This document shows, piece by piece, positions 22,369-27,986 of a stretch of DNA of 64,000 bases. A program made the position numbers and the translations under genes. The notes below the pieces were generated by a model. That model was given only the letters and a program-made list of their open reading frames with translations. It was not told the DNA's origin and searched no databases. Numbering within the stretch: position 1 is the first letter of the stretch; every line of letters starts with the position of its first letter. Source of the DNA: Desulfovibrio piger (lineage in GTDB: Bacteria; Desulfobacterota; Desulfovibrionia; Desulfovibrionales; Desulfovibrionaceae); contig NZ_OX636706.1 in the NCBI RefSeq assembly GCF_951793255.1, forward strand, positions 1,897,001 to 1,961,000. Direction: 5' to 3'.

Positions 22369-23631
22369 TTAGAACAGCTGCACGCCGCCCAGCCAGTGAT
22401 GGCAGACGCGGCCCTGCATCTCCCGGCCCAGGAAGGGAGTGTTGTAGCTCTTGGAGTACAGGGTCTCGCGGCTGACGGTCCACTTTTCTTCGGGATCGAA
22501 GAGGAAGAAGTCGGCCGGATCACCGGGCTCGAAGCGGTTGAGGGGCAGATTGAAGATCTCGGCCGGGCGCACGCTCCAGAGGCGGTGCAGGTCGGCCTCG
22601 CTGATGACGCCCTCGCGCACCAGCTGCCAGGTCAGGGTCAGGGCCAGATCCATGCCGGTGAAGCCGCAGGGGGCCTCGTCCAGGGTACGCTCCTTTTCAT
22701 GGGCGGCGTGGGGGGCGTGGTCGGTGGCCAGGATGTCGATGGTGCCGTCCTTGATGGCCCGGCGCAGGGCCTCGCGGTCTTCGGGGCGGCGCAGCGGCGG
22801 GCTGACCTTGGCGTTGGTGTTGTAGCCGTCCAGCGCGGATTCATCCAGCGTCAGGTAGTGGGGGCAGGTCTCGGCCGTGACCTTGACGCCGCGGGCCTTG
22901 CCCCAGGCGATGATGTCCACGGTCAGGGCGCTGGAGACGTGGGCGATGTGCACGGGCAGGTTCAGGTATTCGGCCAGCATGATGTCGCGGGCGGCCTGCA
23001 CGGCCTCGCCCACCGGGGGCTGGCCCTTGACGCCCAGGCTGCCGCTGAGGGGACCTTCGTTCATGACCCAGCCGCGGGCCAGGGTGCTGTCCTCACAGTG
23101 ATCGATGAAGGTCAGGCCCAGGTCGGCGCCGTATTCCATGACGCGGCGCAGCAGTTCGGTGCCGGGCATGGGACGGCCGTCATTGGAGATGGCCACGCAA
23201 CCGGCGTCCTTGAGCTCCTGCAGGGGGGCCATCTCTTCACCGGCCAGGCCCACGGTGGCGGCGGCGATGGGGCAGAGGCGCGGACCGTGGGGATGGGTCT
23301 GGGCGGCACGGTCCAGCATGAAACGGGTGACGCTGGCGTTGTCGTTGACGGGCTTGGTGTTGGCCATGCACATGACCGAACCGAAACCGCCGCGGGCGGC
23401 GGCTTCCAGGCCGGTGTTGATGTCTTCCTTGTATTCGAAGCCGGGCTCGCGCAGGTGGACGTGGGCGTCCACCATGCTGGGCATGAGGATCAGGCCGCGG
23501 GCGTCCACGATCTGGCTGCCTTCGGGCGCGGCGTGATGGCCGGCGGGGGTCATGGTCACGATCTTGCCGTCCCGCACCAGCAGGTCAACGGGGGCGTCCA
23601 GGTGACGGGCGTTCTTGATGCACAGGGTCAT
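22369..23631 (-). CDS. pyrC: Dihydroorotase (class I)
   Basis: A 420-residue zinc amidohydrolase that cyclises carbamoyl aspartate to dihydroorotate, the third step of pyrimidine synthesis. Metal ligands and substrate contacts are evident: DAHVHLREPG with His57 and His59, MANTKPVND, the CEDS stretch, HIAHVSS and ATDHAPH with the catalytic aspartate. Length and motif spacing are those of the class I enzymes that often pair with aspartate carbamoyltransferase. Its ATG follows the pyrB TAA with no gap (TAAATG), so translation of the pair is coupled. A strong terminator follows. Confidence 0.97.
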   Translation of the reverse strand: MTLCIKNARHLDAPVDLLVRDGKIVTMTPAGHHAAPEGSQIVDARGLILMPSMVDAHVHLREPGFEYKEDINTGLEAAARGGFGSVMCMANTKPVNDNASVTRFMLDRAAQTHPHGPRLCPIAAATVGLAGEEMAPLQELKDAGCVAISNDGRPMPGTELLRRVMEYGADLGLTFIDHCEDSTLARGWVMNEGPLSGSLGVKGQPPVGEAVQAARDIMLAEYLNLPVHIAHVSSALTVDIIAWGKARGVKVTAETCPHYLTLDESALDGYNTNAKVSPPLRRPEDREALRRAIKDGTIDILATDHAPHAAHEKERTLDEAPCGFTGMDLALTLTWQLVREGVISEADLHRLWSVRPAEIFNLPLNRFEPGDPADFFLFDPEEKWTVSRETLYSKSYNTPFLGREMQGRVCHHWLGGVQLF

Positions 23632-24585
23632 TTAGCAACCTCCATCGTTACGGGTGGCCAGCAGGTAGAGGACGGCCATGCGGGTGGCCACACCGGACGC
23701 CACCTGATCGAGGACCAGGCTGCGCGGGTCGTCGGCCACGTCGTTGGAAATCTCCAGCCCGCGGTTCATGGGGCCGGGATGCAGGACCTTCACGCCGGGG
23801 TGGGTGAGTTCCAGATGACGTTCGGTCAGGCAGAAGCGGCGGGAATATTCGGCCAGGTCGGGCAGCAGGCCTGCCTGCTGGCGTTCCAGCTGCAGGCGCA
23901 GGCACATGACGGCGTCGGTATCGCGCACGGCCTGGTTGAGGTCGCCGTACACGTCCACGGGCCAGGATTCCACACCGGCGGGCAGCAGGGTGCGCGGCGC
24001 GCACAGGCGCACCTTGGCGCCCAGCATGGTGAGCAGGTGCACGTTGGAGCGGGCCACGCGGCTGTGGGCGATGTCGCCCAGGATGAGCACCTGCTTGCCG
24101 GCAAAGGCATCGCCCCAGACCTGCCGCAGGGCGAAGCTGTCCAGCAGGGCCTGGGTGGGATGGGCATGCCAGCCGTCACCGCCGTTGACGATGCCGCAGG
24201 AGACACGCTCGGCCAGGAACTGGGCCGCGCCGCTGCTGGGATGACGGATGACGATGACGTCAGGCCCCATGGCCTGCAGGGTCAGGGCCGTGTCCTTGAG
24301 GCTCTCGCCCTTGTTGAGGCTGGAACCGGACTTGGCCAGGGAGTAGGTGTCGGCGGAAAGGCGCTTGCCGGCCACATCGAAAGACGTCTTGGTGCGGGTG
24401 CTGTTCTCTACGAAGAAGAGCACCACGGTCTTGCCCTTGAGGGTAGGCACCTTTTTGACGGGTCTCAGGTTGATTTCCTGGAAACTGGCGGCCACGTTCA
24501 GCAGGTGACGCACGTCCTGTGCGTCGAGCTGGGTGACGTCCAGCAGGTCTTTGTGCGGCCAGCGGTACGTAGTATCTGTAGTCAT
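23632..24585 (-). CDS. pyrB: Aspartate carbamoyltransferase, catalytic subunit
   Basis: A 317-residue enzyme that condenses carbamoyl phosphate and aspartate, the committed step of pyrimidine synthesis. The carbamoyl-phosphate loop [10 protein letters not shown] (residues 61-70) and the HPTQALLDS motif (142-150) are intact, in clear contrast to the pseudoenzyme at 5516-6382. C-terminal HPGPMNRG binds aspartate. No pyrI regulatory subunit follows; pyrC does. The gene starts 20 bases downstream of a U-run terminator that belongs to its own leader, so expression is likely set by attenuation. Confidence 0.97.
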
Positions 24586-24605
24586 GGCGTCGTGGGGTTG
24601 CAGGA

Positions 24606-24713
24606 TTAAAAAAAAGCCCGCTCAACGGCGGGACAAAAGAAAAACCGGGCAGAACCCCTGCGAACGGCGTTCACAGGGCGCAGATCACCGCGGTACGTTG
24701 CCAGACATTTCAT
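24606..24713 (-). CDS. Putative pyrB leader peptide
   Basis: A 35-codon frame too short for ordinary gene calling. It starts with ATG at 24713, encodes [10 protein letters not shown] and, near its end, [16 protein letters not shown], and its TAA (24608-24606) is formed by the end of the terminator's own U-run. The end resembles the E. coli pyrBI leader peptide, whose tail reads GAFFCPGVRR. In E. coli a ribosome that follows polymerase closely through the U-rich pause opens the terminator when UTP is scarce. Here the FFFC codons are the U-rich tract directly before the stem. Only a weak AGG precedes the ATG; a TTTACA-N17-TAGGTT promoter match (24749-24721) would start transcription almost at the ATG, so promoter and start remain open. 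Confidence 0.5.
24608..24632 (-). terminator. Attenuator in the pyrB leader
   Basis: On the minus strand CCCGC (24632-24628), loop CGTTGA, GCGGG (24621-24617), then C and eight T. It lies between the intergenic promoter region and pyrB, with no upstream gene to terminate, so it must act on pyrBC itself. A second hairpin (24656-24678, ten pairs including one U-G) and a U-rich tract lie just before it. Confidence 0.75.
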
Positions 24714-24761
24714 GGGGGCAAACCTAGACGCTGCCGGGCGCTTTGTAAAGCAAAAAGTCAG

Positions 24762-24790
24762 TTGACGCTTTGGGGGGCTTTGTCTACTTT
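24762..24790 (+). promoter_or_regulatory. Candidate promoter of the TauE/SafE gene
   Basis: TTGACG (24762-24767), a 17-base spacer and TACTTT (24785-24790), followed by a leader of about 150 bases with several GC-rich self-complementary stretches. Confidence 0.5.
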
Positions 24791-24944
24791 CTTGAGGTAT
24801 TGCGCCGGACCAGCGGCAGGTGTCCGGTGCCTGTCCCGGGGGCGTGACGGGGCCCGTGGCCCCACGCCTTTTTGTTTTTTCTGCCGTTTCGTACCGCGAT
24901 CGCGCCTCCGGGCACGACCTGCGCTGCCATGGAGGAAGGTCGTC

Positions 24945-25742
24945 ATGCTCGTTTCAATCCTTGTCTATTTGTGCTGCGGCGCCGTGGCCGGTGTGCTTGC
25001 CGGTCTGCTGGGCGTGGGCGGCGGTATCGTCATCGTGCCCATGATGGTGGCGGTCTTTCCCAGTCAGGGCATCCCGGCCGAATATGTGCAGCAGATAGCC
25101 CTGGGCACCTCGCTGGCCAGCATCATGATCACGTCCATCGCCAGCAGCCGGGCCCACCACAAACGCGGCGCCGTCCACTGGGACATCTTCCGCAACATCA
25201 CGCCCGGCATCCTGCTGGGCACCTTCCTGGGCGGTCTGGTGGCCACCCACATGCCGACCCTGTTCCTGAAGGTCTTCTTCATCTGCTTCCTGGGCTTTGT
25301 GTCCCTGCAGATGCTGTCCAACTACCGTCCCCCGGCCAGTCGTGAGATGCCCGGCGCCCTGGGCACCGCCGGTGTGGGCGGCGTCATCGGCCTCATCTCC
25401 AGTTTCGTGGGTATCGGCGGCGGGACGCTCTCCGTGCCGTTCATGAGCTTCTGCAACGTGCCTCTGCATCACGCCGTGGGCACCTCGGCCGCCATCGGCT
25501 TCCCCATCGCCGTGGCCGGTACGCTGGGCTATATCGTGGGCGGCTGGAATGCCCCCGGCCTGCCCGCCGGCTGTGTGGGCTTCGTGAACCTGATGGCCTT
25601 TTTCGGCATCGCTGCCGCCAGCTTCATGACGGCCCCCATCGGTGCCAGGCTTTCCCACTCCCTGCCCACGGCCAAGCTCAAGAAGGGCTTTGCCGTCTTC
25701 CTCATCATCGTGGCCCTGCGCATGCTGGTGGGCCTGTTCTAG
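24945..25742 (+). CDS. TauE/SafE-family membrane transporter
   Basis: A 265-residue, strongly hydrophobic inner-membrane protein with about eight predicted transmembrane segments. The family is an internal duplication, and both halves show the hallmark glycine motif: AGLLGVGGGIVIVPMM near residue 20 and SSFVGIGGGTLSVPFM in the middle. Members export sulfite, sulfoacetate or other sulfur-containing anions; in a sulfate reducer a role in sulfur-anion or sulfonate transport is plausible but the substrate cannot be read from sequence. The ATG at 24945 follows GGAGG by nine bases. It is divergent from pyrB and may form a unit with the YitT-family gene 170 bases downstream. Confidence 0.88.
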   Translation: MLVSILVYLCCGAVAGVLAGLLGVGGGIVIVPMMVAVFPSQGIPAEYVQQIALGTSLASIMITSIASSRAHHKRGAVHWDIFRNITPGILLGTFLGGLVATHMPTLFLKVFFICFLGFVSLQMLSNYRPPASREMPGALGTAGVGGVIGLISSFVGIGGGTLSVPFMSFCNVPLHHAVGTSAAIGFPIAVAGTLGYIVGGWNAPGLPAGCVGFVNLMAFFGIAAASFMTAPIGARLSHSLPTAKLKKGFAVFLIIVALRMLVGLF

Positions 25743-26783: not shown

Positions 26784-27986
26784 ATGCTGCAAGAACATGA
26801 CGACCGGCTCCGCATCATCCGCGCCCGGACCATCCTGGATATGCTCGGGGAGCGCCCCGCCACGGGCCGCGACCTTTTCCGCCCCCTCAAGGGCCTGGAC
26901 AATGCGGCGCTGCTGGTACGCGGCGGCCGCGTCCTGGACGTGCTGCCCTGGAAGAGCGTGCGCGTGCCTGCCGGGACCCCGGTGACGGACATGGGCGACG
27001 TGACCCTGATGCCCGGCAGCATCAATGCCCACTGCCATCTGCAATTGTCGCATACGGCGGGCCGGACGTTGTTCGGCGCGGGCTTCACGGCCTGGCTGCG
27101 CAGCCTCATCGCCCTGTTGCGCGAAGAGCATGACGGCACGGCCCTGATCGGGGCCTGCCGGGACATGGCCGCGGCGGGCACGGCCCATGTGGGCGATTAT
27201 GCCGGGGACGGCCTGCTGGCGGTGGATGCCGCCGTGCGGGCGGAAGGCATGGGCGTGACCCATTTTTGCGAGTGGTTCGGCGGCCAGGCCCCCTTCATCG
27301 ACGACGGGCGTCCCTGGCCGCCGCGCTGCCGTGCCCTGCTGGAAGGCCGGCCGGAAGTGGCCGGGCGCTGTGCTCCGGCCGGGCACGCCCTGTATTCCAC
27401 GGATGCCCGCGTGTTGCAGGATGCGCGGCAGTGGTGCCGTCTGAAGGGGTGTCCCTTCGCCCTGCATCTGGCGGAATCCGAGGACGAGACGCGCCTGCTG
27501 CTTGACGGCGAGGGCCCCCTGTGGGACTGCTACCGGGGCATGGTGCTGCCGGAAGACTGGGCCGTGCCGCATCTGCGACCTGTGGCCTATGCCCGGCGTC
27601 TCGATCTGCTGGGCCCGGGCACGCTGGCCGTGCACGGCGTGCAGCTGGAGCCCGCCGAAGTGACGGCCCTGGCCGCCAGCGGCAGCGCCCTGTGCCTGTG
27701 CCCCCGTTCCAACGAATATCTGGCCGTGGGCACGGCGCCCGTGGCCGCGCTGCTGGAGTCCGGCCTGCTGTGCTGTCTGGGCACGGACGGCCTCAGCTCC
27801 AACACGGATCTGGATGTGCGTCAGGAAGCTGTTTTTTTGCGCGAAAGGCTGGACGTTGCCCCGCAGGCCCTGATACGGTGCCTCACTGTGAACGGGGCCG
27901 CCGCACTGGGCCTTGCCGGATACGGGCGTCTCGAACCCGGGAGCAGGGCCGTTTTCAGTGTGCTGCCTGAAAGCCTCTCCATCTGA
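26784..27986 (+). CDS. Amidohydrolase, deaminase type
   Basis: A 400-residue metal-dependent hydrolase of the cytosine deaminase/TrzN branch. The metal-binding HCHLQLS (His83 and His85), the HLAESEDE segment, HGVQL and GTDGLSSNTDLD with the catalytic aspartate are all present. The HCHLQLS ... GAGFTAWLRSLI opening recalls enzymes annotated as aminodeoxyfutalosine deaminase in the futalosine route to menaquinone, which is a reasonable but unproven guess for this organism; guanine or methylthioadenosine deaminase activities are alternatives. It follows the YitT gene by six bases. The C-terminus (YGRLEPGSRAVFSVLPE) is complete. Confidence 0.75.
   Translation: MLQEHDDRLRIIRARTILDMLGERPATGRDLFRPLKGLDNAALLVRGGRVLDVLPWKSVRVPAGTPVTDMGDVTLMPGSINAHCHLQLSHTAGRTLFGAGFTAWLRSLIALLREEHDGTALIGACRDMAAAGTAHVGDYAGDGLLAVDAAVRAEGMGVTHFCEWFGGQAPFIDDGRPWPPRCRALLEGRPEVAGRCAPAGHALYSTDARVLQDARQWCRLKGCPFALHLAESEDETRLLLDGEGPLWDCYRGMVLPEDWAVPHLRPVAYARRLDLLGPGTLAVHGVQLEPAEVTALAASGSALCLCPRSNEYLAVGTAPVAALLESGLLCCLGTDGLSSNTDLDVRQEAVFLRERLDVAPQALIRCLTVNGAAALGLAGYGRLEPGSRAVFSVLPESLSI

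Follow-up and report, generated by a model that had tools for sequence, protein, structure and literature searches.

What does an intrinsic terminator control when it stands directly in front of pyrB and serves no gene upstream of it? The question is raised by the window, i.e., the whole stretch of 64,000 nucleotides analyzed here, the pyrB of which is a 100% match to that of D. piger ATCC 29098, so that the genome belongs to the Desulfovibrio piger group. A sequence-only reading of this DNA had proposed a transcription attenuator of the pyrBI type, with a leader peptide, in front of pyrBC. Ribosome-coupled pyr attenuation, known best from enterobacteria, is the textbook case of transcription–translation coupling. 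In the literature library searched, nothing relevant on pyr regulation in Desulfovibrio, including D. piger, turned up. Based on a comparison across the genus, we propose that the locus probably carries a ribosome-coupled transcription attenuator of pyrBC, which resembles pyrBI control, would respond to UTP, and is predicted to have a leaderless start.

The pyrC gene abuts pyrB directly on the minus strand, the two forming a pyrBC operon (Table 1). Within positions 24606-24749 of the same strand, the -35 and -10 elements, an ATG, a hairpin, a T-rich tract, and the terminator follow one another in this order, and then comes pyrB, with its ATG 22 nt past the end of the T8 (24608). The terminator had been described as a stem with eight U lying between the intergenic region and pyrB, without an upstream gene to serve, and both points hold: stem and T8 are present, the nearest neighbor, a TauE-like membrane protein gene (24945-25742, plus strand), is divergent, and the minus strand has no gene directly upstream. 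The leader of that divergent gene (24762-24881, plus strand) has features of its own, namely TTGACG-17-TACTTT, which resembles a promoter, and a strong hairpin, GGCGTGACGGGGCCCGTGGCCCCACGCC-TTTTTGTTTTTT, which looks like a terminator and among 30 loci checked occurs in the two D. piger loci only.

Table 1. Features of the pyrBC locus, in positions of the window.
Feature	Position	Strand	Evidence and remarks
-35 element, TTTACA	24744..24749	-	in the genus usually inside the larger block CTTTACAAA; matching spacing upstream of pyrB in 59 genus genomes
-10 element, TAGGTT	24721..24726	-	17 nt behind the -35 here, 17-18 nt in every match; TAnnnT in most of 59 genomes
Leader ORF, 35 codons + TAA, predicted leaderless	24606..24713	-	runs through the T-rich tract and terminator stem into the U-run
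10-bp hairpin, CCCTGTGAAC-GCC-GTTCGCAGGG, strong, possible pause hairpin	24656..24678	-	predicted fold of the window leader; precedes the tract of the next row
T-rich tract, TTTTTCTTTT, candidate site of UTP-sensitive pausing	24635..24644	-	adjoins the stem; leader T runs longer than shuffled
Intrinsic terminator (attenuator)	24608..24632	-	stem 24632-24617, CCCGC-CGTTGA-GCGGG, then C and T8 (U8) at 24615-24608
pyrB, aspartate carbamoyltransferase catalytic chain	23632..24585	-	NCBIfam NF002032, 380 bits (cut-off 263)
pyrC, dihydroorotase	22369..23631	-	TIGR00857, 382 bits (cut-off 279)

The promoter, which had been called unclear, becomes clear after the genus comparison. We looked for pyrB in 79 genomes of the same genus and read 70 upstream regions, with a promoter search that imposed no requirement for an ATG. 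The pattern TTTACA (once TTGACA)-17/18-TAnnnn was found upstream of pyrB in 59 of the 70 genomes, with the first ATG after the -10 element at 6, 7, and 8 nt in 28, 17, and 12 genomes, respectively. In the window, 7 nt separate the -10 element (24726-24721) from the ATG at 24713. Transcription starts normally at approximately 7 nt past the -10 element, which makes the A of the leader ATG the predicted first nucleotide and 24713, or a position within 1-2 nt of it, the predicted transcription start; the promoter spacing predicts a transcript that begins at the start codon in 57/59 of the genomes with the promoter. This geometry points to a leaderless leader frame, with its ATG at about +1. The strong ribosome-binding site that had been missed is indeed absent, but this would be no weak point of the proposal, since the ATG coincides with the predicted start site of a leaderless frame. 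Elsewhere in the genome, leaderless-type genes with these promoters gave few matches (4 and 5, compared with 2 and 0 in the controls), and none of the other TTTACA matches inspected was recognized as a similar attenuator. At one further locus (L207, G000:C1:1070800-1072400), the gene behind a TTTACA-17-TATATT-ATG spacing encodes a putative YheO-like regulator (a name given by eye) and could be leaderless.

The 35-codon frame read from 24713 was confirmed, with its TAA at 24606 lying inside the U-run just before pyrB. Across the genus, the leader ATG was picked by promoter score alone, ignoring whether the frame behind it was open. A terminator was detected in 55 leaders, and in 54 of these no stop interrupts the ATG frame before the terminator stem, compared with 13 and 23 leaders for the other two frames. 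When the pyrB upstream regions of Desulfovibrio are compared, along the lines that had been proposed, the leader frame proves to be conserved also among the 28 leaders that share <70% identity. Of these, 27 have an open frame 0, as against 7 and 15 for the +1 and +2 frames and 13.7 expected from shuffles (P = 1.6e-8), although the species behind these frame counts are related and the counts thus partly dependent. A harsher single-linkage grouping yielded 14 clusters, of which 13 are open in the ATG frame, compared with 3 and 5 in the others and 7.5 expected. The exception is the leader of genome G074, which stops after 5 codons, 16 nt short of the stem. Of the leader stops, 18 lie within the hairpin, 11 in the U-run, 3 in the gap between the U-run and pyrB, 20 at the pyrB start (many of them ATGA overlaps), 2 beyond it, and 1 before the stem. 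At one locus (L035, genome G022), the leader frame apparently continues into the pyrB frame and meets no stop on the way, so that leader and PyrB could form one protein (judged by eye).

The frame is kept, and its peptide is not. Between close leader pairs, 98 changes are synonymous and 185 nonsynonymous, and the three codon positions contribute about equally (102, 92, and 91), counts that are descriptive because the close pairs overlap. Thus, of the codon-level constraint that had been anticipated, the part concerning an open frame was borne out, but no sign of purifying selection on the peptide was seen, all codon positions changing about equally. Besides, indels in the T runs are compensated, as in genome G003, where paired +1/-1 indels preserve the frame, and in genome G047 the leader frame has shifted such that, instead of stopping in the hairpin, it stays open past the terminator as far as the pyrB start. 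An amino-acid attenuator was also considered and is not supported, as the peptides of the different species have no cognate codon run in common, and only Phe, encoded by the T tract, recurs in some of them.

The terminator stem is kept across the genus with pairs that change on both sides. At the pair level above the G-C pair, for instance, we counted U-G 13 times, U-A 7 times, and C-G 6 times, with one mismatch only; the pairs were counted from the detected arms because the MAFFT alignment misplaced these short arms. The fold energy of the whole leader is ordinary (z -1.1 to -1.4), and for this reason we do not claim a special RNA fold. An Rfam scan of the region gave nothing above threshold, and its best match, anti-hemB (20 bits, cut-off 49.5), was taken as chance.

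Considering the kept frame, the unconserved peptide, the compensated indels, and the covarying terminator pairs, selection appears to act on translation up to or into the terminator as such, and not on the peptide. A frame kept across the genus without its peptide further suggests that a ribosome trailing RNA polymerase most likely decides pyrBC expression. We propose the following scheme. Transcription would begin at or beside the A of the ATG at 24713, so that the start codon would stand at the very front of the leader mRNA, where a ribosome could load on the bare 5' end with no need for a Shine-Dalgarno sequence, translating approximately 27 codons up to the terminator. With plentiful UTP, the polymerase would outrun the ribosome, the hairpin at 24632-24617 would form, and transcription would end before pyrB. 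When UTP is short, the polymerase would hesitate in the T-rich tract that immediately precedes the hairpin, allowing the ribosome to catch up and to cover the 5' arm of the hairpin, upon which the polymerase would continue into pyrBC.

Of these steps, the identity of the signal bears on the T-rich tract. The T runs in the genus leaders are longer than in shuffles (4.11 vs 2.99, z 6.5); A runs show some excess in length as well (z 4.0), and C and G runs show none. Over the 8 nt that immediately precede the stem, T is the commonest nucleotide of the genus leaders (109 of 224, with 71 C, 27 G, and 17 A). The longer-than-chance T runs fit UTP-dependent pausing, and we infer UTP to be the likely, but unproven, signal. 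Support for UTP-specific pausing is unequal across lineages because five genomes (G063, G019, G007, G032, and G052) have no leader T run longer than 3. Attenuation coupled to translation could also operate with a different signal, the terminator then reporting the general speed of translation or transcription, e.g., in the stringent response or through overall NTP levels. Such a reading would fit a frame and a terminator that are better conserved than the T-rich tract, the several lineages without a long T run, and the lack of a shared codon run that would suggest an amino-acid signal; however, the T runs above chance, the dominance of T beside the stem genus-wide, and the fact that the regulated genes make UTP precursors argue against it, and we consider it unlikely.

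A second alternative, to which we give a similarly low probability, concerns the use of the leader ORF, which could mainly deliver ribosomes to a pyrB lacking a Shine-Dalgarno sequence, by termination and reinitiation (translational coupling), with the terminator being secondary. The pyrB of the window tested negative for a Shine-Dalgarno sequence (region 24586-24605). In the genus, pyrB has one in 13/55 of the leader-bearing genomes (42/55 being without) compared with 13/15 of the members that do not carry the leader (Fisher p 1e-5, uncorrected for relatedness), and this rarity where the leader is present speaks for coupling, as does the leader stop overlapping or abutting the pyrB start in 20/55. 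On the other hand, 18 leader stops lie inside the hairpin, tens of nucleotides upstream of pyrB and thus at a poor distance for coupling, and the terminator is kept with covariation. Coupling is also compatible with attenuation, and both may operate.

A third alternative is control by PyrR: PyrR with UMP or UTP would bind the leader RNA and favor the terminator, as in Bacillus. The presence of pyrR, for which a check had been suggested, was confirmed in the genome of the window (222 bits, cut-off 138), and PyrR is encoded in 69/79 of the genus genomes. With a terminator before the pyr genes and PyrR in the genome, the locus resembles the Bacillus pyr operons with PyrR-dependent attenuation (RF00515), but this leader is without RF00515 and has instead a kept open frame. 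No known PyrR RNA element reaches threshold in the genome of the window (best match 26.9 vs 54 bits, away from pyrB), the Rfam scan of the region reports none in the leader, and the interior of the leader, unlike its frame, is free to vary from species to species, contrary to what a sequence-specific RNA target would predict. We thus regard PyrR-controlled attenuation as distinctly improbable. That the frame lies by chance across an ordinary terminator or a noncoding leader is very hard to believe. An open short frame is a common thing in G+C-rich DNA (13.7/28 expected), but here 27/28 leaders are open in a single frame (P = 1.6e-8), with the ATG placement fixed in 57/59 genomes.

The ribosome-coupled attenuator that we favor has a close counterpart in E. 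coli, where low UTP pauses the polymerase and the coupled trailing ribosome blocks the terminator (PMC10135430), and where pyrBI in addition relies on reiterative transcription at its start, which is UTP-dependent (PMC6245113). In E. coli K-12, pyrL is likewise a leader ORF that runs through a T-rich tract and the terminator to the start of pyrB, which is the regulated gene, with a comparable distance from ATG to stem (90 nt vs 81 nt here), a comparable T content (33% vs 31%), a terminator with T8, and a stop 3 nt before pyrB. In contrast, pyrL has a 5' UTR and a Shine-Dalgarno sequence (GGAGG), whereas the ATG here is at the predicted +1; its main T-rich tract lies approximately 28 nt before the stem instead of beside it; the predicted start here has no T run for reiterative transcription; the downstream gene is pyrI there and pyrC here; and the peptide is unrelated. 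The predicted leaderless ATG would thus make the Desulfovibrio leader a variant of the E. coli arrangement. The sequence-only reading had also seen a pyrL-like tail (GAFFCPGVRR) in the leader peptide. BLASTP aligns only 8 residues (17.3 bits) and the tail varies among relatives, so that we reject homology with pyrL, and the FFCP resemblance is a coincidence because the leader peptide is not conserved. What stands of the pyrBI-type attenuation originally proposed before pyrBC is the leader frame, the terminator, and the coupling to translation, for which the frame conservation, the compensated indels, the covarying terminator, and the T runs argue; the pyrL-like tail does not stand.

Two further systems are comparable in part. 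In Sinorhizobium meliloti, the trpL transcript (rnTrpL) has the start codon of its leader ORF at the 5' end and extends as far as the attenuator (PMC7298713), and thus a leaderless leader peptide lies within an attenuator, as predicted here; however, its signal is tryptophan, read through stalling at Trp codons and an antiterminator, and no cognate codon run is present in the Desulfovibrio leader. The cysteine-rich small ORFs of mycobacteria, in which leaderless translation is widespread, have been suggested to regulate operons (PMC4633059). They are similarly small upstream ORFs in a leaderless setting, proposed as attenuators, but with clusters of cysteine codons and a conserved peptide, unlike the unconserved peptide in front of pyrimidine genes reported here.

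Among 40 genomes from other genera of the family, none has the promoter with an ATG at 6-8 nt, and 7/40 gave weak promoter matches. Mapped on a tree of pyrB from 56 named loci, the leader label clusters strongly (7 changes vs 18 for shuffles), a pattern compatible with an early gain within Desulfovibrio sensu stricto followed by later losses; a single gain is unproven by the tree. Candidatus D. intestinavium (G011/L138) has lost both the terminator and the ATG placement. In several other genera, pyrB lies directly behind the end of an amidohydrolase-like gene (judged by eye), and a comparable gene in the window stands apart (26784-27986). Two loci of genus g32 (L196 and L197) have TTTACA-17-TAATGT and then a terminator in a short leader before pyrB, with no leader ATG, which is possibly a different attenuator design. 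The Desulfovibrio case is likely independent of the enterobacterial one. A broader hypothesis, which we put forward tentatively and hold to be possible rather than probable, is that of a genus-wide UTP-sensing attenuator that arose in Desulfovibrio independently of E. coli pyrL, in which a ribosome loaded at the 5' AUG of the leaderless ORF would both block the terminator and translate the Shine-Dalgarno-free pyrB, with PyrR also present.

The conservation of this leader over dozens of species, with a peptide that is free to change, provides natural data on what such an attenuator requires, i.e., the placement of the start, the frame, the distance, and the terminator. The predicted leaderless start also poses the question of whether ribosomes that load at the 5' end can catch the polymerase within approximately 80 nt. 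Overall, these results are relevant to how gut sulfate reducers, D. piger among them, control their genes.
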